This document shows, piece after piece, positions 4,315 through 32,388 of a stretch of 64,000 nucleotides of DNA. Below the pieces are notes generated by a model. It was not told the origin of the DNA and did no database searches. It saw only the letters and a list, made by a program, of their open reading frames with translations. The translations under genes were made by a program, and so were the position numbers. The stretch is from Planctomycetales bacterium 10988. Its GTDB lineage: Bacteria; Planctomycetota; Planctomycetia; Pirellulales; Pb10988. The stretch is from positions 5,856,709 to 5,920,708 of the forward strand of contig CP043547.1 in the NCBI GenBank assembly GCA_009664345.1, read 5' to 3'. Within the stretch, counting starts at the first letter, position 1. Each line of letters begins with the position of its first letter.

Positions 4315-6216
4315 TCAAATAAATGCCAAAACAAGGGCAGTGATGATCCCGATTCCCAAAAGTAAATCAAGGAAGAAAAGAAAATAGCCAACGCGAAGCT
4401 GGTACTTTTCTTTCTCTCGTGTCTCCGGGGTCCATTCGACTTCTTCTTGTTGATCGATCAGTTTATCAATCACGCCCTTGACGAATGCCTGGCGATCCGC
4501 GGTCTCTCCGATGGCGGCAAAATAGCAACCACTAAAGAGCATCAAGCTCGGCGGGTCGCTGACCTGTCGCGGATCGTAGCCATATCCAACGGCCAAAATC
4601 TGAGCCAAGCGACTTTGCAGATGACGTCGAATCTGACAAAGTAAGGCATAAAGTTTGGTATTTCCGGTCTTGCTCAAAGCCCCTCGTTCTCGGAAGAGGG
4701 CATAGATCCAAGTTTCAAAGGAGATACAAGCGTGGGCACAGAGGGCTTCCAAGTCGGCAGCCGTTGGAGGAGCCCACAGATCGAACCCTTTGCCGAAACG
4801 TTGGGCGGCGGCTCGATCTTGACCGACACGGCGAACCAGTTCACGGAAGCCGCTTTCGCCTTCCATGCCGACCACAAGTGCCATGACCGGGCAGCGAACC
4901 TGGCAGTTATTAACGATGGTTTGCAAGTCGGTTTTGACGGCCTTTTGAATTTCGGTTCCTTCCCGAGGGCCACGGCGAATTAAACCAAAGGGCAACAGCG
5001 TAAGCACCCCATTGACGGGGCTTAACGGCTCGCGTTTCCGTTTGAGTAATTGGCAGAGATATTCCAAGCGGCGAACTTGCTCGCTGGCTTCTTGTGCGGT
5101 TAGCATCACCGCTCGACGCGACATTGAAGGCATCGAGAGTGCTGCGAAATCGACACCGGAAGCATTGCTAGAATGACGACTCGGGGGACCCGGAGCATTC
5201 CCCGGCAGGGCGGCTGGGCTTTGTCCTTCGGTCGCTCCTAGAACCAGGGTGCCTGATCGAGAGGGCGGTTTTTCACCTGGAGTAGGAACGTTCGAACCTG
5301 GCGGCGGAGCGTTGCCGGGCGGATTTTGCCCTTGGCCGCCGGGTTGATTCATTAAAGCCGCTAAGCCGCTTCCTTCGCCACCCATGCCAGGCAAAACCAT
5401 CGTTCCAGTATTTGGTTTTTTGGGACCATCTTTACCACCTGGACTTCCGCTGATTTGCGGGGTGGGGCCACCAATTTCTGGAGGGGGTGGCAAGGCTGTC
5501 TCTTTGGCCGACCATGCGGCTTGAGGAACTTGCGTAATGTTACTTTCTCCGCGAGCATTCCCCGGGATGGGTCCCATCGGGGTGGCTTCCATTTCGCCCC
5601 CGGCGTCGACTTGCTCATCCTCTTTATGGGAAAGTTTGCTCAAGCAACTCGATTCACTACAGACAATATAGATCGCGTCGGGGTTGGCATACCAATGAAG
5701 GGCGGCGGGGCCTTGCGGAACATTTTCCACCCGAAAGCTCAATTGTGAGGCTTTGAATAGCGACTCCTCAAACGGTTCTCCTCGTGAGCCGACGACTAAA
5801 AAGACGGGGATCTCTTGAATGTCAAGGCCGTTCTTTTTGAGTTCGGCCAGTCCGGCTTTCCAAGCGTAATCGATATCGGGATGCGGGGAGAGATCGCCTT
5901 CGAGCCACATGCGAATGCTGTAATAAACCAGCACGGGAATGACGATCACCAACACCGTCAAGACGGCAATCCGAGGCCAACTCAAGGCATGTTGCCAAGG
6001 CACTCGGTAGATATCGTACATAAAATAAAGATTGACGCCGACGATACACCCCAGTAAGACAAAGCCCATCAGCAATGCCGCAAAGAAGGGGATCGAACAG
6101 CCCATCTCGGAGCCAGGTCGGCGAAAGAGGAGACGAAAAGGCAGGGTCAAATAGAACCACAGCCGCTTCATTCCATGAGCGATGCTGTTATACATCGCAT
6201 CGAGCATACTAAACAT
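4315..6216 (-). CDS. tssM: TssM/IcmF-like inner-membrane protein, shortened, without P-loop
   Basis: 633 residues, about half a typical TssM (usually over 1100). Two membrane hairpin helices (about 42-68 and 83-101) and a third at the extreme C-terminus (about 608-632) frame a cytoplasmic domain. The region IPVFLVVGSRGEPFE (about 136-150) lines up with the TssM P-loop region, but the GxxxxGK[ST] lysine and Ser/Thr are missing. A Pro/Gly/Ser-rich linker (about 230-355) follows. The segment with SPVNGVLTLLPF and CPVMALVVGMEGESGFRELV matches the TssM 'PINGVL' and 'vvFTKcD..pGF' motifs, again without nucleotide-binding residues. The periplasmic IcmF domain that binds TssJ is absent. It sits 16 bases beyond tssL, as expected for a TssL-TssM pair. 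Identification rests on order, topology and these echoes. Confidence 0.75.
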   Translation of the reverse strand: MFSMLDAMYNSIAHGMKRLWFYLTLPFRLLFRRPGSEMGCSIPFFAALLMGFVLLGCIVGVNLYFMYDIYRVPWQHALSWPRIAVLTVLVIVIPVLVYYSIRMWLEGDLSPHPDIDYAWKAGLAELKKNGLDIQEIPVFLVVGSRGEPFEESLFKASQLSFRVENVPQGPAALHWYANPDAIYIVCSESSCLSKLSHKEDEQVDAGGEMEATPMGPIPGNARGESNITQVPQAAWSAKETALPPPPEIGGPTPQISGSPGGKDGPKKPNTGTMVLPGMGGEGSGLAALMNQPGGQGQNPPGNAPPPGSNVPTPGEKPPSRSGTLVLGATEGQSPAALPGNAPGPPSRHSSNASGVDFAALSMPSMSRRAVMLTAQEASEQVRRLEYLCQLLKRKREPLSPVNGVLTLLPFGLIRRGPREGTEIQKAVKTDLQTIVNNCQVRCPVMALVVGMEGESGFRELVRRVGQDRAAAQRFGKGFDLWAPPTAADLEALCAHACISFETWIYALFRERGALSKTGNTKLYALLCQIRRHLQSRLAQILAVGYGYDPRQVSDPPSLMLFSGCYFAAIGETADRQAFVKGVIDKLIDQQEEVEWTPETREKEKYQLRVGYFLFFLDLLLGIGIITALVLAFI

Positions 6217-6232
6217 AGAGTCCTACGCTCGT

Positions 6233-6874
6233 TTATGAGAGAAAGTAGATTGCACCTAGAATCGACGTTACTGTGCCTAGCATAATAAACACCAAGAAAG
6301 AGATCATCAGCACGGATTTGCCCTCTAGCGGAGGTGCACCTTCGCCGTCTTCCGCTCCTTCTCGTAAGTCAGGAAGCCCTTGTCCCAACCGAATCGTCCA
6401 GGCAATTTGACGCGCCCACGTCTCTAAATCATTCGGCAGCCCGCGTGGTCCAGCCAACAAGGAGGCCGCTTGTGGGTCTCGATAAAAACCGCGAAACCCG
6501 AGGACGACACAGACATAATAGACTTCCAAGGCATTCCGCGAAGAGAGCGTCGATGCCTCTTGAGCCTTTGTATAAAATAATTCGTTACAAAGCCGCGTGT
6601 TGAATAACTCGACTTCCAACACATTGTTATTCCACCAGTCACGGCCATGCCAAGGAGCCTCCAGCAGGACCTCATCGATCCAAGAGGTCAAGGCATATTT
6701 GGCTAGGTTCCATTCTTCACTCGCTCCGATGAAGGCTTCTCCTTGATCCAGATAGGCCCGGATACGAAGACGCTCTTCTTGCGGTGAAGGGTTTTCATCC
6801 TGGCTAATGCGTTCCAGGAGACCCAGCACGTGCAAAAATATAGGATCGACGGCTTTTGAAAACTGTGGGGTCAT
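6233..6874 (-). CDS. tssL: T6SS membrane-complex protein TssL (DotU family)
   Basis: 213 residues with a cytoplasmic DotU helical domain and one C-terminal membrane helix (about 188-212, VLMISFLVFIMLGTVTSILGA). Diagnostic stretches include 'A.EEWNLAKYALTSWIDEVLLEAPWHG' and 'LCNELFYTKAQEA', followed by the conserved 'ALEVYYVCVVLGFRG.YR'. TssL partners with TssM to anchor the baseplate to the inner membrane and contacts TssK. No C-terminal OmpA-like peptidoglycan-binding domain is fused, so anchoring to the wall is not provided by this protein. The start overlaps the tssK stop by four bases (ATGA), which implies translational coupling. Confidence 0.95.
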   Translation of the reverse strand: MTPQFSKAVDPIFLHVLGLLERISQDENPSPQEERLRIRAYLDQGEAFIGASEEWNLAKYALTSWIDEVLLEAPWHGRDWWNNNVLEVELFNTRLCNELFYTKAQEASTLSSRNALEVYYVCVVLGFRGFYRDPQAASLLAGPRGLPNDLETWARQIAWTIRLGQGLPDLREGAEDGEGAPPLEGKSVLMISFLVFIMLGTVTSILGAIYFLS

Positions 6875-8337
6875 CGGCGAACAGGCACGGCAAAGAGGGC
6901 AAATTGCAGGACAGCTTCTCGGTTACCAAAGACGACTTTCATATTTCGTTTCCCCTGGAGATCATTTCGATTCGTGATAAGGGAGTCACGCAATCGCATC
7001 GCTAGGGTTTCAGTCTCTTGAACATCGTTCCACACCGCATTGCCGCGACTGACCTTGAAATAGATCCAATCGGCACTGCGTGGAAGGGCTCGAGGGGCAT
7101 GGTCGAGCGGCATCAGCATCAAGCCTTCCGCCCGATGAGCAAAGAGAATTTCCACTTGGCGGCTACTTCCCAGCTTCCAGTCCAAATGTCCTGGAGAAAG
7201 AAGTTGCCGACATTCTTGTTCGCTTAGTTCCCCGGAGTGAACCCCGACATACCATTCCCAGTCGGAGTTGAACCACTTGGATTCCAATTTGACTTGCATC
7301 CCCAGCCCGACGCCGACGAAGTAGCGTTGCTCGAATTCGTAATCTTGGACCGAGCCGATCAGTTTCTCGATCAGGGCTTTGACCAAGAGGAAGACCGAAG
7401 CCAGGTCGTCGTGATCGTAACGCGGCAAGTCCGGCGTGCGGCGTTCGTCGCCAAAGATGGAAAGCTGGCCGACAATGCGGCAGAGCTCTTCATAGACCCA
7501 GAAGGGATGAACGCCAGGGGCAAAGGCCAAGACAGACAGCACCGAATAAGCTTGATTGAGTTGGGTCAGCATCAAGATCCGGTCGAAGTCGCCTGGCTCT
7601 TGGCTGTAGAGCGTCATGCCACGGTTGATGACCTGTTGGGAAAGGACCTCGATTTTCTTTCCGATAATGTCGTAAATCGCCCGAACGATGTCTCGCCCGA
7701 GAGGCGGCCAAGCATCCGCGGCGAGCATGGGCGGGATATATTTAACATCTAGTCGCGGAACCGATTCCCCTTCGCTGGCCCGTTCGATTTGAGCAATGGG
7801 GAGAATCTCATATCCGGTGGTATCTTCGGTGCTGAGAAGAATCCGCACTTGGAGGTCTTTGAAGTTGATCAGTTGGTCGTTGCCGCCTTGGCTTTCGTCT
7901 TGGACTTCGCGTTCGGTTTCCGAAAAGCGTTCGTGGCGGGCATCGCCATTGAGGGCCACATTAGGGCTTCCGAGGCGAAGTTTGGGAACCCCGAGATAAA
8001 GACGAATCATCTTTTGATCGGCGAAACCAGCTTCGAGATCGACCTTTACCGGTTCCCCGCGAAGGAGCGAATCTTTCAATTCCACGCGATCCGGCTCTTG
8101 GCCGGCTTCCAAAGAAATCAGCGTACCATCTTTCAGGCGGGCATGGAGAAGATGAATTTCAAACTGATGGTTCTCGAGGGCTTCCCGACTGAACTCGATC
8201 GCGCGGATCCCATAATGATAGGGATGATCCCAATTCTGGGAGGTCGTCATTTGTTCTTGCCAATAGCGATCCGCTGCTTGGAAATGTTGAGGACGCAAGA
8301 ACATCCCTTCCGACCAGTGAACTGGCATATTCCGCAT
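6871..8337 (-). CDS. tssK: T6SS baseplate protein TssK
   Basis: 488 residues. The N-terminus carries the family hallmark 'HWSEGMFLRPQHFQ', and the middle shows 'EVRIL'-type strands and the 'LCRIVGQLSIFGDERRTPDLPRYDHDDL' segment (written here in two parts of the family pattern), with a C-terminal globular domain that in other systems contacts TssL/TssM. TssK connects the phage-like baseplate to the membrane complex. Starts at codon 1 or 4 (both ATG) are possible. The stop overlaps tssL by four bases. Upstream lie about 480 bases without a gene and then the beta-barrel gene on the same strand, so tssK-tssL-tssM may be a separate transcript. Confidence 0.95.
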   Translation of the reverse strand: MRNMPVHWSEGMFLRPQHFQAADRYWQEQMTTSQNWDHPYHYGIRAIEFSREALENHQFEIHLLHARLKDGTLISLEAGQEPDRVELKDSLLRGEPVKVDLEAGFADQKMIRLYLGVPKLRLGSPNVALNGDARHERFSETEREVQDESQGGNDQLINFKDLQVRILLSTEDTTGYEILPIAQIERASEGESVPRLDVKYIPPMLAADAWPPLGRDIVRAIYDIIGKKIEVLSQQVINRGMTLYSQEPGDFDRILMLTQLNQAYSVLSVLAFAPGVHPFWVYEELCRIVGQLSIFGDERRTPDLPRYDHDDLASVFLLVKALIEKLIGSVQDYEFEQRYFVGVGLGMQVKLESKWFNSDWEWYVGVHSGELSEQECRQLLSPGHLDWKLGSSRQVEILFAHRAEGLMLMPLDHAPRALPRSADWIYFKVSRGNAVWNDVQETETLAMRLRDSLITNRNDLQGKRNMKVVFGNREAVLQFALFAVPVRR

Positions 8338-14542: not shown

Positions 14543-17236
<2,694 letters not shown>

Positions 17237-17969: not shown

Positions 17970-19271
17970 TTATAGGTGGACCACTTCATTTCCATCAAAA
18001 ACGGCGTCCTCGACATCATGCTCGGGGGCTTTGCTGAGTAACCAAGTATTCCAACCGAGATGCGGTCCTAGGCCCGGATCGTTGACCAGTTGGCACTGGG
18101 GGACTTCCTTCGCTTTGAGTAATAATTGCAAATCGAAATCGAATTCAGGGCCAAGATAGAGTCGAGCCAAGTGAACGAAGAGGAAGAATTTCTTTCGTTT
18201 CTCTTGGCGAGTTTTGTCGGGGAAATATTCGGTAAATTCTTTGTAGTTGAGCGGTCCCATCCGCAGGCGGACTTTACTTTGGATGTCCCACACCCGCGAA
18301 CCGAGGATCATTGATTCGCCCAAGACGCTATTTCCACTGGCAAGCCCTAAGCGGGATTGATGTTCCTCGTCGAGGGAGAGCCATTGCCCTTGGAACTGGA
18401 GAACTTCGACCTCTTGCCGAAAGTAATCGGTCATCAGGTTTTGCAAGCCGATCGCGGAACGCCGCCGCGAACTCAAGAGACCTGCATAGTAAAACAGTTC
18501 GACATCATGAATACTTGCGAGTTTCCGCTCGGGCTCTTCCAAATCTTCTGGCTGAGGAATGGCAATGCGAAGACGTTTGCGAACGCGTGGAGTGCCGAGC
18601 CCCATCAAGCTATAGACCGCTTGGGAAAAAGGGTCCGGGTCTTCATGGTCGTATTCATCGCGTTCGTAAAGCAGATCGAAGCGATATTTTTCCCAGGAAC
18701 GATAGAAGAGAGAAATCATCCGATGCGAGAAAAGGTCCAGCCAATCCCGCAAGGCATATCGTTCCTCAGTCCGCGAGTCCCGGATTTGATCCATGACCGC
18801 TTCGGTATAATGTTGCGGCAACACGCCATTGGGGCCGACCATCCCCATGAAGTTGACTTCCATCCTCGGCATTTCTAGATGAATGGACGGATCGGAGGTT
18901 GGGCCTTTCCCTTTCTTTTTCAAGGATTGAAGCGTACTCGCGGGAAAATCGAGTGAGAGATGGCACATGAAGCGAACCGCTTCTTCATCCGGTGGCGTCG
19001 AAAAACCGATCGGACGCCGCGAGGTCTCCCAGCGTTGCAAGAGACGAATTGCCTGGAAAAAGTCAAATGTGAAGGGTTCTTGGAAGAGAATTTTGTGGAG
19101 TGGGGTGCTATCCGGTAGTCGCGTCGTTTTCTGGACACGCAAGTAGCTGGGAACCTTGGCTTTGGCCGAGGCTGCCTTCGTCGCTTTCTTAGACGGTTTG
19201 GATTTCTCTGCTTTGCGATTCTCTTCCGAGGAGTTTACAGAAGAGGACGGTCGGCGACCCGAGGTGGCCAT
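17970..19271 (-). CDS. tssG: T6SS baseplate protein TssG
   Basis: 433 residues. After a Lys/Ser/Ala-rich extension of about 60 residues comes the TssG fold: 'EPFTFDFFQAIRLLQRW' at about 70-86, 'EAVRFMCHLSLDFPASTL', 'VNFMGMVGPNGVLPQHYTE', 'LRDWLDLFSHRMISLFYRSWEKYR' with the invariant DWLDLFSHR element, and the C-terminal Gly/Leu-rich barrel part. TssG forms the wedge with TssF and TssE around the spike. The extension makes it longer than the usual 330-360 residues. Its start overlaps the tssF stop region by 37 bases in another frame. Confidence 0.95.
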   Translation of the reverse strand: MATSGRRPSSSVNSSEENRKAEKSKPSKKATKAASAKAKVPSYLRVQKTTRLPDSTPLHKILFQEPFTFDFFQAIRLLQRWETSRRPIGFSTPPDEEAVRFMCHLSLDFPASTLQSLKKKGKGPTSDPSIHLEMPRMEVNFMGMVGPNGVLPQHYTEAVMDQIRDSRTEERYALRDWLDLFSHRMISLFYRSWEKYRFDLLYERDEYDHEDPDPFSQAVYSLMGLGTPRVRKRLRIAIPQPEDLEEPERKLASIHDVELFYYAGLLSSRRRSAIGLQNLMTDYFRQEVEVLQFQGQWLSLDEEHQSRLGLASGNSVLGESMILGSRVWDIQSKVRLRMGPLNYKEFTEYFPDKTRQEKRKKFFLFVHLARLYLGPEFDFDLQLLLKAKEVPQCQLVNDPGLGPHLGWNTWLLSKAPEHDVEDAVFDGNEVVHL

Positions 19272-21097
19272 TTTTTGAGTGTTCCTTCCCGTTGACGTGT
19301 TTTCGCCACGAGTTGAGTGAATGAATTGATCGAAGCGTAGAGTCCGAGAAATCGCTCTAATACGCTGGCAAAGAGGAAGACTCCGGTACCGATATATTTC
19401 TCTTCATCGAACATCATGCTGACTTCTACCCCGCGACAGAATCCGGCCGGAGTCCCCCCGGTACGCCCAACAACTCGTCGGCTTTCCACTTCCAAAATTC
19501 CTTCGACCAGCTGACGGTTCACTTCGGACATTTGCCCTTGGCCCGCTTCCGGATCGGAAAAATCGTAGAGACGGAGAATTTCTTGGAAAGCCTCGCGACC
19601 TTCGGCCGGATCGGTGATGGAAAGATGATTTAGAAGCAAATGCGAAACTAACCCCCAATGCGAACCACGTTTCACCGGGGGATGCAGCGGCGGACTCGGT
19701 GTTACCAGGCAGCGGACTCCTGTAATCGGAGCGGCTCCGGCATAATCAAAGCGGAGGTTTTGACCGGCCCGGCGAAGCTGCGTCGGGAGGTTACGATTGG
19801 TACACGTCGTCTGCACCACTAAAGTATGATCGGCAGGCAGCTTCAAGTCGAGATTACGATCAACCAGCCGGATGGAAACCTCTGTGCCAAAGTCATTGGC
19901 CCGGTTGCTCGGTTCTCGCGAGGCATGCCAAAAGACTTCCTTCCCCTGCCGGGGTTTGGCCGAACGGAAAGAGTAAAAGGGTTCGTAAACGGTTGTCTTG
20001 TCTGAATCGGCGTTGATACTGCGAACATCCTCAATCGAATAGACCTCCATCCCCATCCGACGATTGACATCGGGAATGACCGGGTATTCGAACTTGCGTT
20101 GCGTTAAGCGAATCGGCTCCGCGACTTGGCGAAAGAGATTGATGATTGGCGTGCAGCCCAATTGAAAGGTGTCTTCGTCCAACCACTCTTCCAGACTGGA
20201 AGCATGACGATTCAGGAAGAAGACCACCTCGACCGAACGACCGTAATTTCCGCTCTTACAAACTTTCTGCCAGCAACCGAGATCGGCAAAGAGGAATTTC
20301 TCGGGAAAGGCAAAGAACTCTGTCAGTAAGCGATACCCCGGCAAGGTCCGCCGATCGTACGGCAAGAGACTTTGGTCCAGATCGAAGCCCACCTGCGAAA
20401 GACATTCTTTCGGAGAGAACCGTATATTATGAGCGCTCTTTCCTTCTCCGGGAACACGGAAAAGGACTTCGGTGCAATGATTGAAGATCAGTTCGTAAAG
20501 TTCCGCCGTGGCGAACCCGCTGCCAAAGAGGAACATCCGCAAGGTTTCCAGCTCTAGCTCTTCCAAAGAGACTTGCGAACGGCACCCGATTTCGAGGCGA
20601 ATGGCCGATTCGGTACGCCGGGGAGCCCGAAAGTCCGTTGGATAAGGAGGGGCCTGCAAACGTGCCTTCCGAATTTCCAGAGGCCAGAGCTTCGTCGGGT
20701 AAACCGTTCGATATCGGCAGGCGACATCCCCGACACGTGGCGAGCGAAGTTCACTTTTCGGAGGGATATCAAACCCTTCTGGCAACGCCCCGCGGCTGGG
20801 ATCAATCACAAATTGAGCAATCGCCATCGAAGGAATCGGCCGCAGATAATGCGGGGCAATGACGGACAGCAAGGCATCGGTCAGCTCGGGAAACTCATCA
20901 TCCAGCTTATGCCGCACGCGACCAGCCAAAAAGGCAAACGATTCAATCAGGCGTTCGATATGAGGATCGCTACTCCGATTCGCTTCAATCATCAGCCGAC
21001 CGGCGGCGGCCGGATACTTTTGGGCAAACTCCTGGGCGATCTGCCGAATGTAAATCAGCTCTCGTTCGTAGTACGGAAAGAGCGCTTCAGTGCCCAT
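19235..21097 (-). CDS. tssF: T6SS baseplate protein TssF
   Basis: 620 residues, normal for TssF/VasA. The N-terminus 'LFPYYERELIYIRQIAQEFAQKYP' and 'IERLIESFAFLAGRVRHKLDDEFPELTDALL' are diagnostic, followed by 'LYPHYLRPIPSMA'-like text (here VIAPHYLRPIPSMAIAQF) and the C-terminal 'FCRGVEVSMMFDEEKYIGTGVFLFASVLERFLGLYASINSF'-type segment. TssF pairs with two TssG-like chains in each baseplate wedge. Only two bases separate its start from the tssE stop. Confidence 0.97.
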   Translation of the reverse strand: MGTEALFPYYERELIYIRQIAQEFAQKYPAAAGRLMIEANRSSDPHIERLIESFAFLAGRVRHKLDDEFPELTDALLSVIAPHYLRPIPSMAIAQFVIDPSRGALPEGFDIPPKSELRSPRVGDVACRYRTVYPTKLWPLEIRKARLQAPPYPTDFRAPRRTESAIRLEIGCRSQVSLEELELETLRMFLFGSGFATAELYELIFNHCTEVLFRVPGEGKSAHNIRFSPKECLSQVGFDLDQSLLPYDRRTLPGYRLLTEFFAFPEKFLFADLGCWQKVCKSGNYGRSVEVVFFLNRHASSLEEWLDEDTFQLGCTPIINLFRQVAEPIRLTQRKFEYPVIPDVNRRMGMEVYSIEDVRSINADSDKTTVYEPFYSFRSAKPRQGKEVFWHASREPSNRANDFGTEVSIRLVDRNLDLKLPADHTLVVQTTCTNRNLPTQLRRAGQNLRFDYAGAAPITGVRCLVTPSPPLHPPVKRGSHWGLVSHLLLNHLSITDPAEGREAFQEILRLYDFSDPEAGQGQMSEVNRQLVEGILEVESRRVVGRTGGTPAGFCRGVEVSMMFDEEKYIGTGVFLFASVLERFLGLYASINSFTQLVAKTRQREGTLKKWPPRVADRPLL

Positions 21098-21099
21098 GC

Positions 21100-21585
21100 T
21101 TACTTGATTCCTTTGACCGAAGTATGTCCGGTCGTCAGTTCGAGAACTGTTTCAAAAGCGACTTCCGGAGCCGGATCGACTGCCAAGGTCGCCTCGATAT
21201 GATAGCGTACACGCAATAACTTACTGAGTTCGTGGTCGAGTTCCGGGATGGCCCGCACCTTTCGCAATCGTGGCTCGAACTTCATTACCTGATCCGCGAT
21301 CAATTGGCCAAGATCGCGTTGTTCTTTCAGAGTAGAAGCAGAGATCGAACCAAAGTCCGGCAGCCCGAACGTCAAGAGCGTATTGTGCAACTCGGGATAA
21401 TCGTCTTTGAGATCACGGAAACATTGTCGGGTATTGAGCAACTTTTCCAAGTCCCTGCGAACCACATCCATCATCTGCTTCAGTGTATAGCCCGGCATGG
21501 CGGAAGTTCCGCCGGAGTCCGGATCGGTCAACCGATCGAACATCGAAGGCATCAATCCGGCACTGACTCGCATATCGCTGGACAT
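21100..21585 (-). CDS. tssE: T6SS baseplate protein TssE (gp25-like)
   Basis: 161 residues. gp25-like wedge protein: 'SMFDRLTD' near the N-terminus, 'VRRDLEKLLNTRQ' (about 42-54, containing the invariant RDLExLLNTR that nucleates the sheath), 'LLTFGLPDF' and a C-terminal 'LRVRYHIEATL' strand. TssE docks the first sheath ring on the baseplate. It is encoded directly before tssF with no gap, as in most T6SS. Confidence 0.97.
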   Translation of the reverse strand: MSSDMRVSAGLMPSMFDRLTDPDSGGTSAMPGYTLKQMMDVVRRDLEKLLNTRQCFRDLKDDYPELHNTLLTFGLPDFGSISASTLKEQRDLGQLIADQVMKFEPRLRKVRAIPELDHELSKLLRVRYHIEATLAVDPAPEVAFETVLELTTGHTSVKGIK

Positions 21586-21690: not shown

Positions 21691-22530
21691 TTATTCGCTT
21701 TCTGTTTCCGCTTCTTCTTCCATATCCTCTTCAAAGACGATCTCACGCACGTCCAAAACGGAACAAGCCTCATCCCCGATCAACCAAAGGTGAGCCCCGA
21801 TCCCTAAGATCGGACGATTCGGCTCTTCGATCCAGTTTGTTAATCGCCCGAGGCGTACTTGGTCATCTTCGTCGTTTTGCGAACCTGGATAAATCGTGGG
21901 CAGGAAGATTTCTCCACTGGGTCCATTTTTGACATCCAAGCGAGTCGGCATCCACAGCAAGTCACGAGGATAGCGGGGCGGGTTACTCATTAGCATGTCA
22001 ACCTGTTCCCAACCCATCCAGTAGTAACCCCCTTGTGCAGTCATAAATTCGACAATTCCCGCAAAGAAATCATCACAATCCCGAAAACCGGTAAAGGGAA
22101 TCGGATCGCTGTCTTGAATTTTGAACTCTCCGGTCAACTCGGGAATGGCTTCGTTCGCCTCTTCGATCAACGCGAGACCTTCTTGATCTTTTCCGGCTTT
22201 CAATAATTGCCAAGCTGCGAAGCGTTTCTTCACATGCTCCGAAGGTTCCAGCAAAGAGCTTGGCTCGGCAGTCCCGGCAAAAACCTTTTCCCTCTGAACA
22301 GCGGCTGCGAGGAGATTTTTGTACTTTTCCAAGGCCGCCGCGAGTTCTAGATCATCATAGTTGAGCACATCCAAATGTTTCTTCGCGCGTTCCCAATCCC
22401 CTTGGAACGAGAGTAACTCAAAGAGAAACAACCGCAAGGCATCATCCGCCGGTTTTTTCTTGACTGCGGCGATCTGGGCTTCGATGGCTTCATCGAGATT
22501 TCCTGCATGAAAGAGGTCGCTGGCGGTCAT
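21691..22530 (-). CDS. tagJ: T6SS accessory protein TagJ/ImpE (sheath-ClpV adaptor family)
   Basis: 279 residues. The N-terminal TPR-like helices 'LFHAGNLDEAIEAQIAAVKKKPAD' and 'LFELLSFQGDWERAKKHLDVL' are the ImpE signature. The C-terminal half has 'WIGWEQV'-type text (here YYWMGWEQVDMLMSNPPRYPRDLLW), 'IFLPTIYPGS' and 'RLGRLTNW', also as in the family, and ends in an acidic tail. TagJ binds TssB and helps recycle or assemble sheaths in the systems that have it. It lies between hcp and tssE on the same strand. Confidence 0.93.
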   Translation of the reverse strand: MTASDLFHAGNLDEAIEAQIAAVKKKPADDALRLFLFELLSFQGDWERAKKHLDVLNYDDLELAAALEKYKNLLAAAVQREKVFAGTAEPSSLLEPSEHVKKRFAAWQLLKAGKDQEGLALIEEANEAIPELTGEFKIQDSDPIPFTGFRDCDDFFAGIVEFMTAQGGYYWMGWEQVDMLMSNPPRYPRDLLWMPTRLDVKNGPSGEIFLPTIYPGSQNDEDDQVRLGRLTNWIEEPNRPILGIGAHLWLIGDEACSVLDVREIVFEEDMEEEAETESE

Positions 22531-23485: not shown

Positions 23486-23583
23486 GATGAACCTAAAATA
23501 GAAGTTGAGGAGGAATGAAGTATAAAGGAGAAACTTGCGGATAAGGGCCACTATCGAATGTGATTGATTTTGAACTGCGATGC

Positions 23584-24159
23584 CTAGGCGAATTTCCAAA
23601 TCCGTGCCAACGGGGAGCCCGCTCCGTCGGCGGTTTCCGGGACATACTCGAACGTGCAAGTTCGGAAATAGAAATCGATATCTTCTTCCGGTCGTTCCAC
23701 GCCAGTACACCGAATCGAATAGCTCAGCACCGAAACATCTTCAAATTCAAACGTTACGAAAGTATAAGGGGTTTTCGTCCCTTCCATCCGTCGCAAGATC
23801 ACCTTAGCTTTGGAAAAAGAGATCATCTGGGCAGGGTCGCTACTGCTGCAATAGGCTTGAAAAAGGGCGGGAGACGATTTATCCAAGTCCTTGGTGATGC
23901 TGAAAATGCGGACATCCTTCACCGAATCGCGGCCCATGCCCTCCACATCCGTACCCAGAAGATGGCCGGTTCCCCACTGTTCTTCCGCGTCGGTTCCTTC
24001 ATTTTCTACACGGAATTCTTCTTCCAGATCGGTCGAACAACCGAGGTCGAAATGTTCGATTTCGATGGCCCCTTCTTCCACGGCGGTTGCTTTCGTTTCG
24101 CCGGAAACTTGCTGTCCTCCCGTGAGAACCAAAAAACCTTCAAAGGTATAATCCGCCAT
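23584..24159 (-). CDS. hcp: Hcp-family T6SS tube protein
   Basis: 191 residues. Opens 'MADYTFEGFLVLTGGQQVSGETKATAVEEGAIEIEHFDLG' in two recognisable Hcp strands (Gly-E-[ST] turn then the acidic loop and 'IE...FDLG') and ends 'EDIDFYFRTCTFEYVPET', the Hcp closing hairpin. The middle 'FSITKDLDKSSPALFQAYCSS' is the usual helix region. Hcp is both tube subunit and secreted product. Paralogous to the genes on each side; the protein sequences differ clearly, so the copies are not a recent duplication. Confidence 0.93.
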   Translation of the reverse strand: MADYTFEGFLVLTGGQQVSGETKATAVEEGAIEIEHFDLGCSTDLEEEFRVENEGTDAEEQWGTGHLLGTDVEGMGRDSVKDVRIFSITKDLDKSSPALFQAYCSSSDPAQMISFSKAKVILRRMEGTKTPYTFVTFEFEDVSVLSYSIRCTGVERPEEDIDFYFRTCTFEYVPETADGAGSPLARIWKFA

Positions 24160-24368: not shown

Positions 24369-24911
24369 TTAACGCACGTCTTGCGTTTGGGCGTTTTTGA
24401 CCACGCTCCACATCGCGGGAATCGGGGCCAACAAGTTCCCGACGTCATCTTGCGGTTTGTACATCATTTTGATGGAACCGTATTCGAAGACCACGTTTTC
24501 GGTCGGGACATCGTCGCCCGAGGAACCGGCCCATTCGATACTTTTGACAGCGACCATCTTGAATTGATAGGCCAAGTAGCTGTCTTCTTCCAAGTTGGTG
24601 AACGTCCCGGTGGTCCCGGTTTTACGCAAGTAAAGGTCAACCGTTTCATAGTGACCACCGAGGCAGCAGCAAAGCACGAGCTTCGGCGAGGCACTATCAG
24701 TTTGTTTGGTGACATTGAATTCTTTGAATTCGGCCTTTCCAGCACCGGCACCACCCGACTTCGAGGTGATGTTCAAGGTGTTTTCCACTCCGAAGGAGAA
24801 TTCGCTGATTTCCAAACAACCAGTAGCGGTGGCGTCTTTGGTTTCACCTTCGATGTCCAACGAAGCACTGGTACCACTAGTAGTAAATTTCATAAACGCG
24901 TCGAATGCCAT
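24369..24911 (-). CDS. hcp: Hcp-family T6SS tube protein
   Basis: 180 residues, the standard size. Starts 'MAFDAFMKFTTSGTSASLDIEGETKD', continues 'CLEISEFSFGVENTL', has the helix region 'FNVTKQTDSASPKLVLCCCLGGHYETVDLYLRK' and ends 'ENVVFEYGSIKMMYKPQD', all in Hcp order. It is the first of three Hcp genes after tssC and so probably the main tube subunit. A run CCC at about residue 97-99 is unusual for Hcp. Confidence 0.93.
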   Translation of the reverse strand: MAFDAFMKFTTSGTSASLDIEGETKDATATGCLEISEFSFGVENTLNITSKSGGAGAGKAEFKEFNVTKQTDSASPKLVLCCCLGGHYETVDLYLRKTGTTGTFTNLEEDSYLAYQFKMVAVKSIEWAGSSGDDVPTENVVFEYGSIKMMYKPQDDVGNLLAPIPAMWSVVKNAQTQDVR

Positions 24912-25186: not shown

Positions 25187-26665
25187 TTAACCTTTTTGAG
25201 GTACTTCCGCGACGAGTCGCATCGAGGTCGATAAGGTTTCCAATTGGAAGTGCGGACGCAAGTAAGCGACCGCTTCGTACCAACCGGGTTTCCCTTCGAC
25301 TTCACGGACATCCACTCGGGCATCGGCCAAAGGACGTTGTGCCTTCAACTCATCCGGGGCCCCATTGGGATTGATCACATAATTGGAAATCCACTTGTTC
25401 AACCAATCCGAGCAGTCATTGACTTCCATGAAGGAGCCAATCTTGTCGCGAGCCATTACCTTTAGGTAGTGAGCAAATCGCGAAGTGCAAAGCAAGAGGT
25501 TGAATTTCGCGGAAAGTTCCGCATTCGCATTGGCATCGGGTTCGAAGTAAGTCTTCGGCTTTTGGCAGCTTTGCGTTCCCATGAAGACCGCAAAGTCATT
25601 CCCTTTACTATGAATCAAGGGAAGGAAGCCAAGGTTCGAAAGTTCGAACTCACGACGATCGCTAATGGCGATTTCGGTCGGGCATTTCATGGCGACATCG
25701 CCGTCATCGGTCGGGAAGGTATGCACGGGCAAGCCTTCGACTTTTCCGCCCCCTTCGACACCACGAGTACGGGCGAACCAGCCATCTTTGGCGAAGGCGT
25801 CCGTGACGCGAGCGGCGTAGGACCAAGCAGCACTCGTCCAAAGGTAATTTTCGTGCATCGTTCCATCGGCATCTTCTTCAAAGTTGAACTCTTCAACCGG
25901 ATTGAAGTTTTCCCCATAGGGAAGACGCCCGAGGGTACGCGGCAGGGTCAATGCGACATAGCGGGAATCTTCCGATTCGCGGAACGATTTCCAAGCGGCA
26001 TATTCGACGCTATCGAAGATTTTGGCCAAGTCACGCGGCTTACCGAGTTCAGTATAACTGTCCATACCGAAAATTTTCGGAGATGCCGAAGCACAAAGCG
26101 GGGCATGGCAAGAAGCGGCCAGACCCGACATATGTTTCAGTAAGCTGATGTCTTGAGCATTTCGTCCGAATTCGAAGTCGGTGACAAGAAGACCATAAGG
26201 TTGACCACCAAGCTGGCCGTATTCTTCTTCGTAGAACTTTTTGAAGCAGGCGGATTGATCGAATTCAACAGCCTTTTCAAAGTCCTTGACGAGTTCTTTT
26301 TTCTTGACATTCAAGACGCGAATCTTGAGTGCTTCACCGGTTTCCGTTTGATGAACGAAGTAATGGAAACCTCGCCAAGTCGATTCCAGCTGTTGGAAGT
26401 CTTCATTGTGAATAACTTCGTTGAGTTGGTCGGAGACCTTTTTATCGATTTGAGAAATCCAATATTTGATCGAGGCTTCGACGTCTTTGGAAACGGTCGA
26501 AGTCGACGACATAATTTGGTTGACAAACTCACCGAAGTATTCTTTATTCCGGTTTGCTTCGTCTTCACTCTGGGGCCGCGTCGCAGCAATGATTTCATCG
26601 AGGAAATCAGTGGATTCTTCTGCTGCTTGAGATTGCGGGGCAGAGGATTCTTCGGCACTCGCCAT
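25187..26665 (-). CDS. tssC: T6SS sheath large subunit TssC
   Basis: 492 residues, standard length. Hallmarks are 'ISQIDKKVSDQLNEVIHNEDFQQLESTWRGFHYFV' (about 70-105), 'GGQPYGLLVTDFEFGR', 'APLCASASPKIFGMDSY', 'LTLPRTLGRLPYGENFNPVEEFNFEE' and the C-terminal 'KPGWYEAVAYLRPHFQLETLS' segment. TssC interlocks with TssB to form the contractile sheath. Same strand as tssB (145 bases upstream) and the three Hcp genes. Confidence 0.98.
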   Translation of the reverse strand: MASAEESSAPQSQAAEESTDFLDEIIAATRPQSEDEANRNKEYFGEFVNQIMSSTSTVSKDVEASIKYWISQIDKKVSDQLNEVIHNEDFQQLESTWRGFHYFVHQTETGEALKIRVLNVKKKELVKDFEKAVEFDQSACFKKFYEEEYGQLGGQPYGLLVTDFEFGRNAQDISLLKHMSGLAASCHAPLCASASPKIFGMDSYTELGKPRDLAKIFDSVEYAAWKSFRESEDSRYVALTLPRTLGRLPYGENFNPVEEFNFEEDADGTMHENYLWTSAAWSYAARVTDAFAKDGWFARTRGVEGGGKVEGLPVHTFPTDDGDVAMKCPTEIAISDRREFELSNLGFLPLIHSKGNDFAVFMGTQSCQKPKTYFEPDANANAELSAKFNLLLCTSRFAHYLKVMARDKIGSFMEVNDCSDWLNKWISNYVINPNGAPDELKAQRPLADARVDVREVEGKPGWYEAVAYLRPHFQLETLSTSMRLVAEVPQKG

Positions 26666-26809: not shown

Positions 26810-27343
26810 TTATTCGTCTGAATCTTCGCTTTCCGCAGCTGCGGCTTTGGGTTCAACGCCGAGGCTTTTGGCCAAGGTTTCTCGTTTTTCGGTGTTGTTC
26901 ATGATTTCGCCCAGCATCTCTTCCAGCTCGTCGTTGCCTTCCATTTTGCTGAGGAGTTGATTGAGGCGATCTCGCATGTCAAGCAATTCCTTGAGCGGTT
27001 TGACTTGGCGGGCGACATTGGCCGGCTCGAAGTCATCCATACTCTTGAAATTGAGTTCCACATTCATGCGAGTGTCGTCATCGGTCAACTTATTATCAAC
27101 CTTGAAAGCGACACGCGGCGCCGATTTTTCCAACACGGCGTTGAAATTGTCGCGATCGATCGGGACGACCTTACGATCCTTCATAGGTTTGAGTTTGTCT
27201 TTCGGACTTCCGGACAGGTCGGCAAGTACCCCGACGACGAAAGGAAGTTCGACTTTTCGCATCGCCCCCCCTGTCTCAACATCGTAGGTAACCTGTACAC
27301 GTGGTCTTCGAACGCGGTCTAACTTGTGCTGCATGGAGGACAT
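26810..27343 (-). CDS. tssB: T6SS sheath small subunit TssB
   Basis: 177 residues from ATG 27343 (MSSMQHKLDRVRRPRVQVTY); the open frame extends upstream but that part has no homology to TssB. The family core is complete: 'KVELPFVVGVLADLSGSP' at about 27-44, 'LKPMKDRKVVPIDRDNFNAVLEK', 'LNFKSMDDFEPANVARQV' and a C-terminal acidic tail. TssB partners TssC in the sheath and presents the ClpV-binding helix. It follows a sigma-70-like promoter and leads the tssB-tssC-hcp operon. Confidence 0.97.
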   Translation of the reverse strand: MSSMQHKLDRVRRPRVQVTYDVETGGAMRKVELPFVVGVLADLSGSPKDKLKPMKDRKVVPIDRDNFNAVLEKSAPRVAFKVDNKLTDDDTRMNVELNFKSMDDFEPANVARQVKPLKELLDMRDRLNQLLSKMEGNDELEEMLGEIMNNTEKRETLAKSLGVEPKAAAAESEDSDE

Positions 27344-27494
27344 CCAGAATCTCCTGTCCAGAGAGCGACCAAAAAGAAAGTGTCTAACGTGATACTCGAA
27401 ACGTGCCTCTTGCGGGCGGAAACAATTTTCCAAATGCCGATAAGTCTTTCACGGCTAGTAAGTTGGAAAAAGTGTCTGTAGGGGAATGAGGTTG

Positions 27495-27834: not shown

Positions 27835-30800
27835 TTAGTCGTCATCTTCATCGTCGTCATCTTGAATGCCGATTTCACGCCACATCTCTTCGATGACGCT
27901 GCCGTCGCGAATGAGTCGTTTCATCAATTTCGGGAAGGGCATTCGGCCAAGTTCGACGGCTTTGAGCAAAAGATAAGGAATCGGGCTATGAGGTTCCAGC
28001 TTTTGCAGGGCCGTTGCCGCTTTATGGAGCTGGTTGTAGATGTCTTCCCGGGTCGCTCCGACTTGTTGTCGTTGAATCACCGAAGCGGCTTGGGCCGGAG
28101 AGAGCATTTGTGCCGGCATGCCGACGCCTTGTTCGCTCATCGGTTGCATCTCGGTTCCTCCAGCTTCAGCGGCTTCTTCCTCTTCATCAGGTCCCAGCTT
28201 CTGCTCGATTTGTAGTAACAATCCGCGGCAATCGTTCAACGCAGGCCCCAACGCGGTGAAGCCTGGTGCTTCGTACATTAACTTTGCTTCCATCACCGTT
28301 TTTAGGAGTTGCAACTCTTTCACGGCATTAGTCGCATCGGCAATATTGTTTTTGAGATATTGTCGAGGGGTGTTGAAGACGGCTTGTTCGAACTCTTCGG
28401 AAGAGACATGGCCTTTCCCTTCCTGGCCGTTTCTCCAGTCTTGCCAGCTATAGGTCGTGCCATCCGGCAGCATCAGCACAGGAACGGAGTGAATCGTGAT
28501 CGGGAAAAGAGCCCCTTTGCTTTCATCGTCCAGCCAATTGTAAGGACCGGATCGCATATCGAGGTCTTCCTCTTCGTCTTCCATTTCCGGACGAAGGCGA
28601 TCCCAGCATTTTTCAAAAAGCAGTCGGCTGAGATGGAAGCCATCGCGAAGACCAGCGAAGCCATGGGCTTTGGTGAGGGCCTCCATCAAGCGGACCACGA
28701 TATTCAGGTCTTTCGTCGTCTCGGTGAGGGTCTCAATACAAAGCGTTTCAATCCCTTCCCAATCCGCCTTCTTCGGCTCTTTCGGACGGCGAGGATCATC
28801 GGCATCATAGAGTTCCGGATTGACCTCCTTCCGCATCTCGTCCAGATTTTCGCGGACATCAAAGGGGATCATGTCCCCAGAGGGGTCCTCTCCAGGGATC
28901 GGTTTCAAAAGGGTATTGAAGTCGAGAATCGGATCGCTTCCCCCTTCGTAGGGCTGATAGTCGTCCCCTAAGTCTGCGGAGTCAGAAGCATCGGATGCCA
29001 TGATTTCACTTTCCTCGTCTTCTTGGCCTAGGTCATCGTCACTGGTTTCGAATGAATCGTCGTCATCGTCAGCATCATCGGTGTCGAGATCGAAGTCCGA
29101 GCTAGCAGCTAAGTCCTCGTCGGAGTCCTCTTCATTACTTACCTCGTCATCCTCGTCGTCCGAATCGAAGCTGAAATCGTCGTCGCTCTCGTCGGAGTCG
29201 TCTGATTCTTCGTCGTCATCATCGGTATCAAAATTGAAATCGTCGTCGGACTCGTCGTCTTCCTCATCGCTGGAGGAATCTAGATCGAGGTTGAGATCCG
29301 AATCGCTCTCGTCATCATCATCGTCGTCATCATCTGTGTCGAAATTGAAGTCATCATCAGAGCTGTCGTCGTCATCGTCGTCGGTGTCGAAGTTGAAATC
29401 GTCGTCCGAGCCATCGTCGTCGTCATCGTCTCCGAAGCTGAAGGGATCGTCATCGTCGTCGTCATCATCGCCGAAGCTGAAGTCATCATCATCGTCGTCC
29501 CCGAAGCCGAAATCATCGTCATCGTCGTCGGAGTTGAGATCACTGTAGGCCATCCGATGGGCTAAGCCGCTATCGATTTCGCTCCGTTTGGAATACCGAG
29601 CCACGAGTTTATCGTACTCTTTTTCCTCTTCGTCGTCGGAGTCGTATTCGTCTTCTGGGGTGATTTCTCGAAAAGCCATGCGACGGGCGAGGCCGTCATC
29701 GACTTCCGGGTTCTTCGCATATTTCTTGGCAAGCGTCTTGATGTCCGGCGTTTCCTCTTCGTCCTCGTCGTCGTCATCATCGAAGCTGAAATCATCGTCA
29801 TCATCGTCGTCGTTCAGGTCGCTGTGGGCCATCCGATGAGCGAGACCTTCGTCGACTTCCTTGTCCTTGGAATAGTCTCGGACAAGCTGCTTCATCGAGG
29901 GTTTTGGTTTCTCTTCTGCATCGTCGTCCTCGTCATCATCGTCACCGAATCCGAAGTCATCATCGTCATCGTCTTCGTCGGCGTGCAGATCACTCCAGGC
30001 AAGGCGATGGGCGAGGCCGTCGTCGATCTCGCGGTCTTTGGTGTAATCGCGGACAAGTTGCTTCATGGAAGGCTTCGGCTTTTCTTCCTCTTCCTTGTCC
30101 TCGTCGTCGTCATCGTCATCGTCATCGTCGAACCCGAAACCGAAGTCATCGTCATCATCGTCGTCGTTCAGGTCGCTATGTGCCATCCGATGGGCGAGAC
30201 CTTCATCGACTTCAGAATCTTTGAGATACTTTTTCTTGAGGGTTTTAAGGTCTTTTTCCTCATCGTCATCGTCGTCATCGCCGAAGTCGTCGTCATCGTC
30301 ATGGGTGTCGCTGTAGGCCATGCGGTGGGCAAGGCCAGCCTCGACTTCCGGGTTTTGAGAATAGCGTTTGACGAGGTCTTCGTAACTTTCCTTCGGTTCT
30401 TCCGGTTCGTCGTCCTCGTCATCATCATCGGAATCAAAGCTGAAGTCATCGTCGCTGCTGTCCGAGTCGTCCTCGTCGTCTGAGTCGAAGCTGAAATCGT
30501 CATCGCTATCATCGTCGGAGCTACTTAGGTCGTCGTCATCGTCATCGAAACTAAAGGAGTCGGAGCTGCCATCCTCAGAGTCATCCCCGTCATCGGAACT
30601 GCCGACATCCAGATCGAAGTCACTCCCGGAATCGTCGTCGCTGTCTGCATCGTCATCATCATCGGAATCGAAGTTGAAGTCGTCGTCGCTGGCATCGTCA
30701 TCGTCGTCCGTTCCTAAATCCATATCCAGGTCGGAACTACTATCGTCATCGTCATCGCTGTCGAAATTGAAATCGTCGTCCGAACTATCGTCATCGTCGT

Positions 30801-32388
30801 CGGTATCGAGGTCCATATCACTCGACGAATCATCATCGTCATCATCCAGGTCCATGTCGCTGGAGGAATCGTCGTCATCGTTGCTATCGAAGGAGTCATC
30901 TTCAAGCGGTTCGTTTTCGGATTCCCATTTGCCTTCCAGGCCGGGTTGTTTTTCCGAGAGCGAGCCGATGGTGCTGAGTTCGATCGCTTGTTCGCCCCGG
31001 ACTCCCAAGATCGGCATGAAGCCCAGGGCGGAGGTTTCTTTCGCTTGTTTGGTCGTGATTCGCTGTTCGACGGAAAGCCCAACGAGTTCATCCTCTTCAT
31101 TGCGATAAACTGTCTGGGGCATTTCCGCGAGATGCTTCAGGCCGTTCGGTTTGAAGTCCCAGCGGCTGTTGGCATATTGCATCCCCAGCAGGGCCGCACA
31201 GGCGAAGCTACCCGAGGCCCAGAGAAAAGAACGGCTCAGGTCCGAGGATTGGCATTCTTCAAAGGAAAAAAGTTCACTCGGTTCGAAGTTTTCGCCGTAA
31301 GAGGGTCGGATCAAGAAACGGGGAGAAACCAGGCCGAGATAGGCCGATTCGGGCAACTCTCGGAGTTGGTCCCAAGCTTCGCCGACTTCGCCTTCCCATT
31401 CAAATCCGCTGGCTAAAACCCGAGGGTGCATGCCTGCGAGGAATGGAGCATTGACCGATTGAGCGATCTTGGCCATTCGCCCCAGCAAGGCGGCATGGGC
31501 CGGGAACGTATCGAATTGATACGCCGAGACCAGCATTGCCCAAGGCTGCCCATCCACCGAATTGACCGCTTTTTCGACCAAAAGCTTATAGACGCCGGTT
31601 TCTTCGAGGCTTTCGTGGCGAGCCAGGTCAGCAGCGAACTCCGCCGCGCTGAGATCAATGGCGATGACCTCGACCTTTTCCGCTTTGATGATTCGCCGTG
31701 TCAGCCAATCAATGGATCGCCAAGCGGCTTCGACACTGGCAAAGTCCGGGTGGTGCAGCACCTGCCGAATGAGTTGTTGGATGCCCAAAGAACAGGCAGT
31801 GACGAGGGCTTCATCATCGGCATCTGGGGGAACAAAAGGACCGATCGCTCTAGCCATCAAGGTCGAAAGTCCGACTTCATCCGCATCGGGATCGAGAGCG
31901 GGTTTCGCCTCGTAACTTGCGAGTTCTTCCCATTCTTGAGCCGCTGGAATCCAATCTCCGCGTGACTGCAAAAGCGGGGGGAATTCGCTATGTTCTTCTC
32001 GCCAAGAACGGACGCGATCTTGCCAGTCGGAGTTTCCCCCTTGCAGGCGATCATGGAGGGCGAAGAGTTCGTCAAAGAGTTCGACTTCTTTGAACAGCCG
32101 ATCCGGATGGAATTCCTCCATCTCTTCGAACGTCAACTCTTCTTGGGCACCTCCTAAAAGTGGTATTTGGATGGTGACTTCGAGTTCTTCTAAGGCTTCG
32201 TCGATTTCATGGGGAAGAAAACGAAAGAGTTTCATCCCGGCGATTTCATCGGAGTCGGCAAAGACGCCACGGCTGGACCGACCGGAGAAATCCCCCAGCA
32301 CCGCGACGCGAAAAGGTCCTTCCGGGTCGCCTTGACCGCGAAAGGCTGCTCCTGACTCCATTTTGCCGAAAGAAAGATCGAGCCCCAT
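27835..32388 (-). CDS. TssB-like/TssC-like/TssA fusion with giant Asp/Ser-rich linker
   Basis: 1517 residues. Residues about 25-115 resemble the TssB/VipA core (FRVAVLGDFSGR, then EEMEEFHPDRLF). Residues about 185-480 resemble TssC: 'IQQLIRQVLHHPDFASVEAAWRSIDWL', 'GQPWAMLVSAYQFD', 'APFLAGMHPRVLAS', 'SPRFLIRPSYGENFEPSELFSFEE'. Residues about 494-1130 are dominated by Asp and Ser and contain six helical repeats around GLAHRMA. From about 1148 the ImpA/TssA domain appears (LLKPIPGEDPSGD, DWEGIETLCIETLTETTKDLNIVVRLMEALTKAHGF-type helices), with no other tssA in the window. TssA normally primes and caps the growing tail; the fusion would tether sheath-like domains to the cap. It is first in the minus-strand gene series, divergent from a methyltransferase. 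Domain calls are firm for TssA and TssC-like, weaker for TssB-like. Confidence 0.88.
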   Translation of the reverse strand: MGLDLSFGKMESGAAFRGQGDPEGPFRVAVLGDFSGRSSRGVFADSDEIAGMKLFRFLPHEIDEALEELEVTIQIPLLGGAQEELTFEEMEEFHPDRLFKEVELFDELFALHDRLQGGNSDWQDRVRSWREEHSEFPPLLQSRGDWIPAAQEWEELASYEAKPALDPDADEVGLSTLMARAIGPFVPPDADDEALVTACSLGIQQLIRQVLHHPDFASVEAAWRSIDWLTRRIIKAEKVEVIAIDLSAAEFAADLARHESLEETGVYKLLVEKAVNSVDGQPWAMLVSAYQFDTFPAHAALLGRMAKIAQSVNAPFLAGMHPRVLASGFEWEGEVGEAWDQLRELPESAYLGLVSPRFLIRPSYGENFEPSELFSFEECQSSDLSRSFLWASGSFACAALLGMQYANSRWDFKPNGLKHLAEMPQTVYRNEEDELVGLSVEQRITTKQAKETSALGFMPILGVRGEQAIELSTIGSLSEKQPGLEGKWESENEPLEDDSFDSNDDDDSSSDMDLDDDDDDSSSDMDLDTDDDDDSSDDDFNFDSDDDDDSSSDLDMDLGTDDDDDASDDDFNFDSDDDDDADSDDDSGSDFDLDVGSSDDGDDSEDGSSDSFSFDDDDDDLSSSDDDSDDDFSFDSDDEDDSDSSDDDFSFDSDDDDEDDEPEEPKESYEDLVKRYSQNPEVEAGLAHRMAYSDTHDDDDDFGDDDDDDEEKDLKTLKKKYLKDSEVDEGLAHRMAHSDLNDDDDDDDFGFGFDDDDDDDDDEDKEEEEKPKPSMKQLVRDYTKDREIDDGLAHRLAWSDLHADEDDDDDDFGFGDDDDEDDDAEEKPKPSMKQLVRDYSKDKEVDEGLAHRMAHSDLNDDDDDDDFSFDDDDDEDEEETPDIKTLAKKYAKNPEVDDGLARRMAFREITPEDEYDSDDEEEKEYDKLVARYSKRSEIDSGLAHRMAYSDLNSDDDDDDFGFGDDDDDDFSFGDDDDDDDDPFSFGDDDDDDGSDDDFNFDTDDDDDDSSDDDFNFDTDDDDDDDDESDSDLNLDLDSSSDEEDDESDDDFNFDTDDDDEESDDSDESDDDFSFDSDDEDDEVSNEEDSDEDLAASSDFDLDTDDADDDDDSFETSDDDLGQEDEESEIMASDASDSADLGDDYQPYEGGSDPILDFNTLLKPIPGEDPSGDMIPFDVRENLDEMRKEVNPELYDADDPRRPKEPKKADWEGIETLCIETLTETTKDLNIVVRLMEALTKAHGFAGLRDGFHLSRLLFEKCWDRLRPEMEDEEEDLDMRSGPYNWLDDESKGALFPITIHSVPVLMLPDGTTYSWQDWRNGQEGKGHVSSEEFEQAVFNTPRQYLKNNIADATNAVKELQLLKTVMEAKLMYEAPGFTALGPALNDCRGLLLQIEQKLGPDEEEEAAEAGGTEMQPMSEQGVGMPAQMLSPAQAASVIQRQQVGATREDIYNQLHKAATALQKLEPHSPIPYLLLKAVELGRMPFPKLMKRLIRDGSVIEEMWREIGIQDDDDEDDD
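29000..30905 (-). repeat. Asp/Ser-rich coding repeat tract
   Basis: Nearly 1.9 kb of GAC/GAT/TCG-type triplets encoding the acidic linker of the fusion protein. Six imperfect ~50-75-residue units lie between 29543 and 30396, each a helix ending in GLAHRMA-[YHW]-SDL followed by a D4-D9 run and often F-G-F-G or F-S-F. Outside them the units are short DDDDxSSxDFNFDSD blocks. Confidence 0.9.

Follow-up and report, generated by a model that had tools for sequence, protein, structure and literature searches.

The described proteins closest to the one reported here are TssA proteins of type VI secretion systems (T6SSs), machines that inject toxins, and above all those of the TssA1-B type of Dix et al. 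(PMC6232143), which have an EP(H/Q)SP motif, form a 32-subunit ring, and have TssE, TssF, TssK, Hcp, VgrG, and TssC as partners. In P. aeruginosa, TssA1 is found at the site of sheath initiation and binds ClpV, and Schneider et al. concluded that it is needed for initiation only (PMC6745524). In the same work, class A TssA is distal and TagA (class B) is a stopper, unlike P. aeruginosa TssA1. TagA and the distal class A proteins have the ImpA_N domain in common with our protein, but their C-terminal domains and locations differ (PMC6745524), and the papers that we consulted describe no sheath domain in either.

We analyzed a window of 64,000 nucleotides from Planctomycetales bacterium 10988, in which a TssA is fused to sheath-like domains. 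The protein has the same complete TssA1 architecture as TssA1-B or class C (TsaB-like) proteins, with an ImpA_N region and an EPHSP-type C-terminal domain, but it adds about 1150 N-terminal residues, which make up a sheath-like module and an acidic, motif-bearing tether. Like TssB and TssC (VipA and VipB), the module has N-terminal sheath domains, one TssB-like and one TssC-like, with significant matches to sheaths in Pfam and the PDB; however, it has both in one chain, and it is without the N-terminal arm of TssB and the gp25-like domain of TssC.

A sheath-like module, a tether, and a TssA in one frame

The fusion gene is a single open frame of 1517 codons with an ATG start. Its parts are as follows.

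27835..32388, minus strand: fusion gene, with a TssB-like plus TssC-like module, an acidic motif-bearing linker, and a TssA1-type TssA (1517 aa)
32029..32388, minus strand: TssB-like part, aa 1-120 (Pfam T6SS_VipA at aa 23-116, model positions 25-121 of 155)
30925..31869, minus strand: TssC-like part, aa 174-488, tail-sheath N-terminal domain only (Pfam VipB at aa 202-466, model positions 10-289 of 301; Foldseek 5n8n_B, 4.5e-17)
28978..30924, minus strand: acidic Asp/Ser-rich tether, about aa 489-1137 (D+E = 50% over aa 491-1137)
28999..29001, minus strand: internal Met codon (aa 1130) just upstream of TssA
27874..28923, minus strand: complete TssA, aa 1156-1505 (TIGR03363 positions 2-351 of 353, above the cut-off)
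27982..27996, minus strand: EPHSP signature of a TssA1-B type C-terminal domain (from the sequence, with the motif as in PMC6232143 and a PDB match to 6h8f)

The first-pass annotation had described an uninterrupted frame of this length with sheath-like domains at the N terminus and a TssA/ImpA domain at the C terminus. The frame is confirmed, and Pfam and NCBIfam agree with both family assignments. The C-terminal 381 residues match ImpA_N (PF06812, 3.5e-26) and the NCBIfam equivalog for TssA, TIGR03363 (2e-59; 202 bits against a cut-off of 160.85), with nearly the whole model covered. This half also matches the TssA chains 6hs5 and 6h8f in the PDB (5.9e-6 for the C-terminal domain of 6h8f), and it contains LEPHSPIPYLL at aa 1464-1474. 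As described for TssA1-B (PMC6232143), the EP(H/Q)SP motif lies in a short C-terminal domain and there is no Nt2 domain; by these features, the window TssA is of the TssA1-B type. Its type would place it in class C (baseplate/initiation), by analogy to P. aeruginosa TssA1, for which that location was shown. The first-pass annotation had also imagined a cap equipped with sheath domains of its own, which presupposes a class A TssA, and the window TssA is not of that class.

Shortly before the TssA part, all five of the fusions that we found (see below) have a Met followed by A[ST], and in genomes G355 and G370 this Met is preceded, at a spacing of 6 nt, by a Shine-Dalgarno-like GAGGAG. The internal Met may be a relic of the old tssA start, or it may be a working internal start that yields free TssA.

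The T6SS cluster of the window

The genome is a single contig of 6.65 Mb, and the fusion is its sole ImpA_N protein. The fusion gene is the first in a minus-strand T6SS cluster and in that sense is its leading gene, as had been proposed, but a gap of about 490 bp separates it from the ATG of tssB. Canonical tssB and tssC, whose presence had been noted earlier, are borne out by their Pfam matches. The cluster includes:

26810..27346, minus strand: canonical tssB (Pfam T6SS_VipA, 1.1e-58)
25187..26665, minus strand: canonical tssC with a gp25-like domain (VipB 5e-128, VipB_2 3e-43)
24369..24911, minus strand: hcp
21691..22530, minus strand: tagJ/impE
17970..21585, minus strand: baseplate genes tssE, tssF, and tssG
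14543..17236, minus strand: clpV
4315..8337, minus strand: tssK, tssL, and tssM

A second Hcp-like protein of 335 aa (22703-23710) has its Hcp domain at the C terminus, and two genes of this kind lie between hcp and tagJ in each of the genomes G356, G371, and G355. At the end of the cluster, after tssM, there is a scramblase-family gene (3641-4231) and a Ser/Thr kinase gene (2148-3248). A 590-aa protein (8816-10588) is without a Pfam family above the cut-off; its homologues are found in T6SS loci beside sheath-mimic genes (L035:11835-13670 and L085:5224-6564). Several planctomycete T6SS clusters (L033, L041, and L051) have a second TssC paralogue immediately 3' of tssC.

A sheath-like module without the interlocking parts

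The gp25-like domain of TssC and the N-terminal arm of TssB are the parts of the sheath that interlock the protomers and touch the tube. The N-terminal 489 residues of the fusion match VipB (PF05943, the sheath N-terminal domain) at 4.8e-44 (151 bits, cut-off 27) and T6SS_VipA at 2.6e-7 (31 bits, cut-off 24), with the TssB-like part first and the TssC-like part second within residues 1-488. In this profile comparison, the sheath-like domains score far above chance. An AlphaFold2 model of the module (from 61 sequences) has a mean pLDDT of 89.8 and a pTM of 0.91, and it gives the TssB-like and TssC-like parts as one compact body. The top matches of the model in the PDB (by Foldseek) are TssC chains of T6SS sheaths (5n8n at 4.5e-17; 5urx and 3j9g), so the predicted structure of this end alone also agrees with the first-pass annotation. 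Together, the Pfam and PDB matches to sheaths rule out a chance resemblance. A search of viral folds gave distant phage sheaths only.

All 61 relatives of the module match both VipB and VipA (Pfam), and the gp25-like domain (VipB_2, PF18945) was found neither in the window module nor in any of these 61. The TssB-like part has “SFGKM...” in place of the canonical N-terminal arm; it aligns to positions 27-124 of 160 of the TssB profile TIGR03358, with 29 bits against a cut-off of 97, and is not a full-length TssB. More generally, the NCBIfam scores of the module are below the cut-offs of the sheath equivalogs, and a full-length tailed relative, L111, covers only positions 22-350 of 473 of TIGR03355. 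With the TssB arm and the gp25-like domain both absent, the module should not polymerize like a normal sheath subunit, and for this reason we ruled out that it is an ordinary extra one. It had been pointed out that the sheath-like part is additional to the canonical sheath genes, and this is correct, but the missing interlocking domain and the broad family of stand-alone proteins (see below) were overlooked.

Conserved motifs in the tether

The tether is acidic, as the first-pass annotation had it, but it also contains repeated motifs that had escaped notice. The motif E[VI][DE]xGLA[HR]R[ML]A occurs six times in the window tether and was not found in any of 2000 shuffles. The copies are:

30316..30348, minus strand: copy 1, EVEAGLAHRMA
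30181..30213, minus strand: copy 2, EVDEGLAHRMA
29998..30030, minus strand: copy 3, EIDDGLAHRLA
29827..29859, minus strand: copy 4, EVDEGLAHRMA
29674..29706, minus strand: copy 5, EVDDGLARRMA
29548..29580, minus strand: copy 6, EIDSGLAHRMA

A DNA pattern search of the window genome for this motif gave seven sites, five of them inside the fusion. Overall, the linkers of the TssA fusions have 3-7 motif copies (related motifs in the other fusions are, for example, ELDPELAALL and DLDAMLASL). Their lengths range from 336 to 661 residues, and the linkers of TssB fusions (see below) vary far more in length. We disfavor the linker as a length ruler because its length is not conserved.

Stand-alone and TssB-fused proteins with tails share a C-terminal motif with the consensus MDPELAALLADL. 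A loose form of the MDPELAALLADL pattern is present in 64 of 69 tailed proteins (0.01 would be expected after shuffling), and three of its leucines are invariant in an alignment of 30 rows. A second motif, LD[DA]LLAGF, usually lies upstream of it. The tails are otherwise unalignable despite these conserved motifs. The conservation of a motif within a fast-changing acidic chain suggests that it is a binding site. In the AlphaFold model of L111, the motifs are short helices whose pLDDT is low to moderate (about 50-75), and the rest of the tail is disordered, which gives no support for back-docking of the tail onto the module.

Recurrence and origin of the fusion

Among 147 sampled genomes of the same order, we found the fusion in one frame in four further genomes: G371 (1085 aa), G356 (1116 aa), G355 (1161 aa), and G370 (1225 aa). 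These belong to two families other than that of the window genome, or three families in all. In a tree of TssA, the five fused TssAs form one clade (support 97/97); in a tree of the sheath-like half, the five fusions group together (SH-aLRT of 81) with the same branching order. Since both trees agree, a single ancestral fusion event is likely. The first-pass annotation had raised the concern of an assembly artefact and had suggested a survey of relatives; the four further fusions, the matching trees, and the one-contig genome rule out an artefact of assembly or frame.

The fusion is the sole TssA that we found in G356 and G371, and a second, distant TssA is present in G355 and G370. In all four, the main T6SS cluster begins at tssB, and the fusion gene is located apart from it. 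Each half also exists as a stand-alone protein in relatives. Within the order, many relatives that have a T6SS show a canonical TssC match only, with no match to the sheath mimic, and so, judging from these matches, the module is an accessory.

A wider family of sheath mimics

We define the sheath-mimic family by the presence of TssB-like and TssC-like parts in one chain, as in the window module. Stand-alone proteins of this kind are encoded in Planctomycetota, Thermodesulfobacteriota, Nitrospirota, Myxococcota, Gemmatimonadota, Verrucomicrobiota, and Pseudomonadota. The family tree splits into tailless proteins (about 500 aa) and tailed proteins, which have at least 40 extra C-terminal residues that are mostly acidic. 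The module of the window fusion lies inside the tailed clade (SH-aLRT of 99), and the fusion has the acidic tail and the repeated helical motif of that branch. Stand-alone tailed mimics such as those of Aporhodopirellula aestuarii (L120) and Frigidibacter (L127) are in the same clade as the N-terminal half of the fusion, but their acidic tails end at MDPELAALLADL and they carry no TssA. The window genome has a second copy of the module, a tailless, stand-alone paralogue encoded directly upstream of the genome’s only vgrG. In genome G305, a protein of 1326 aa (L043:6991-10971) has three tandem sheath-like units per chain.

In Alphaproteobacteria (Ruegeria, Leisingera, Roseibium, and Rhizobium), a full-length TssB at the N terminus is followed by a long acidic linker and then by the module. 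These proteins share with the window protein the module, a similar motif-bearing acidic tether, and a covalent link to a core protein of the T6SS, but the order of the parts is reversed, and the partner is an additional full-length TssB rather than the sole TssA. A separate canonical TssB was present in all six of the genomes with a TssB fusion that we checked. RefSeq plasmid records label the TssB fusions as “type VI secretion system contractile sheath large subunit.”

Within the 700 bp that follow the gene, and on its strand, a vgrG is present for 33 of 33 TssB fusions, 17 of 32 tailed stand-alone genes, and 3 of 29 tailless genes, as compared to 0 of 51 and 0 of 18, respectively, for the clpV and tssC genes of these loci (these counts are drawn from related loci and genomes and are not independent). 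In G356, the TssA fusion is head-to-head with vgrG (divergent, 344 bp), and this is the only fusion genome in which we saw vgrG linkage of the fusion.

In a literature search that covered mainly open-access papers, we found no description of a TssB-TssC fusion or of a sheath-like accessory protein, and within this scope neither the TssA fusion nor the stand-alone family was described. The module family is apparently undescribed and, by sequence, separate from the sheath proteins, with members in several phyla that are mostly annotated as standard sheath proteins. The Tvp spike-accessory complexes (PMC13373197) are unrelated, as the protein families in their description set them apart.

Possible roles of the fusion

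Tentatively, we favor the reading that the fusion is a sheath mimic tethered at the baseplate or the first sheath ring, where it would aid sheath initiation. The TssA1 type, the linkage to vgrG, and the fusion of the module to two core proteins point to initiation at the baseplate, and by the Rosetta-stone argument, a module that is fused to both TssA and TssB should work at the sheath. That the fusion is the genome’s sole TssA and recurs in four other genomes also argues for initiation, as do the anatomy of the protein, the conserved motifs of the tails, and the position of the genome’s only vgrG beside the stand-alone paralogue. On the other side, linkage of the fusion itself to vgrG is confined to G356 among the fusion genomes, in none of the four other genomes does the fusion gene belong to the main cluster, the class C behavior is borrowed from P. 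aeruginosa TssA1, and the module is missing in many T6SS-bearing relatives, as expected of an accessory.

If the fusion acts at the baseplate during sheath initiation, then its TssA1-type subunits would encircle the nascent tube as a ring that binds the baseplate, the spike, and the sheath, and the fused mimic would provide this ring with a built-in, non-polymerizing sheath surface. The mimic might capture or position the first TssB/TssC protomers, or it might dock on the first sheath layer; nucleation would thereby be confined to the TssA site. Through the tether, many copies would come within reach of the sheath, and the helical motifs repeated along it could bind a common T6SS partner multivalently (candidates are the N-domain of ClpV and baseplate or spike proteins). 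Elsewhere, the mimic would either act in trans, often from a gene that neighbors vgrG, or be anchored to an additional TssB. Where it is fused, whether to TssA or to TssB, the association would be permanent.

The first-pass annotation had suggested a starter, a stopper, or a length control. A starter fits best, given the TssA1 type and the vgrG neighbors of the module’s relatives, and the case for length control is weak because the linkers range so widely in length. It is very unlikely that TssA rides the growing end of the sheath while the fused domains stop its growth or gauge its length. In principle, a sheath could be terminated by a protomer that has no interlocking domain, but this TssA differs in type from class A (VasJ-type), which is the one at the distal end, the linker length is unconserved (and even more variable in the TssB fusions), and the linkage to vgrG suggests the proximal end. 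The strong vgrG adjacency of the tailed and TssB-fused forms would also fit a mimic that serves the loading of VgrG or effectors and signals, via the tether, to TssA or TssB that the spike is loaded. The position of the genome’s only vgrG directly after the tailless paralogue and the head-to-head pair in G356 speak for this as well. However, tailless members are seldom beside vgrG, the fusions to TssA and TssB point to the sheath, and we know of no VgrG-binding role for the sheath fold, so we consider licensing of the spike to be unlikely.

The helical motifs of the tether might instead imitate the N-terminal ClpV-docking helix of TssC and either bring ClpV to the TssA-marked end or keep it away. 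Amphipathic helices of the LD[AD]LLA kind are common, the window genome’s own motif (EVDEGLAHRMA) is less similar to the TssC helix, and the module itself is without the ClpV helix of TssC. We view this role as quite improbable, even though LD[AD]LLA resembles LDEIIA of TssC (compared by eye), VipB binds ClpV via an LLDEII helix (PMC4239648), and ClpV is bound by P. aeruginosa TssA1 (PMC6745524). Or the fusion could be nearly neutral, with two separately working proteins that are translated as one and perhaps some free TssA from an internal start. The stand-alone versions of both halves in relatives, the internal Met in 5 of 5 fusions, and the Shine-Dalgarno-like GAGGAG in two of them are consistent with this. 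Still, near neutrality is hard to reconcile with the retention of the fusion across three families despite strong divergence of both halves, the expansion of the linker motif to 3-7 copies, and the fusion to TssB that arose in parallel in a different phylum, and we doubt it.

Implications

The new element is the joining of a TssA1-type TssA to a module from an apparently undescribed, sheath-related family. We think it quite possible, if short of probable, that the tailed TssBC-like proteins are an unrecognized component of the T6SS: a mimic of the sheath that does not polymerize and whose tether, with its multivalent motifs, couples the spike or baseplate to sheath nucleation. In this view, the mimic became covalently attached to TssA in Planctomycetota and, in a separate event, Alphaproteobacteria attached it to an extra TssB. 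This reading predicts a specific short motif with a T6SS partner. The RefSeq name “contractile sheath large subunit” includes a separate family. To our knowledge, how the T6SS sheath nucleates only at a finished baseplate is still poorly understood, and a widespread lookalike of the sheath subunits that is without the interlocking domain, and that has twice been tied covalently to a sheath-assembly protein, would offer a direct handle on nucleation.
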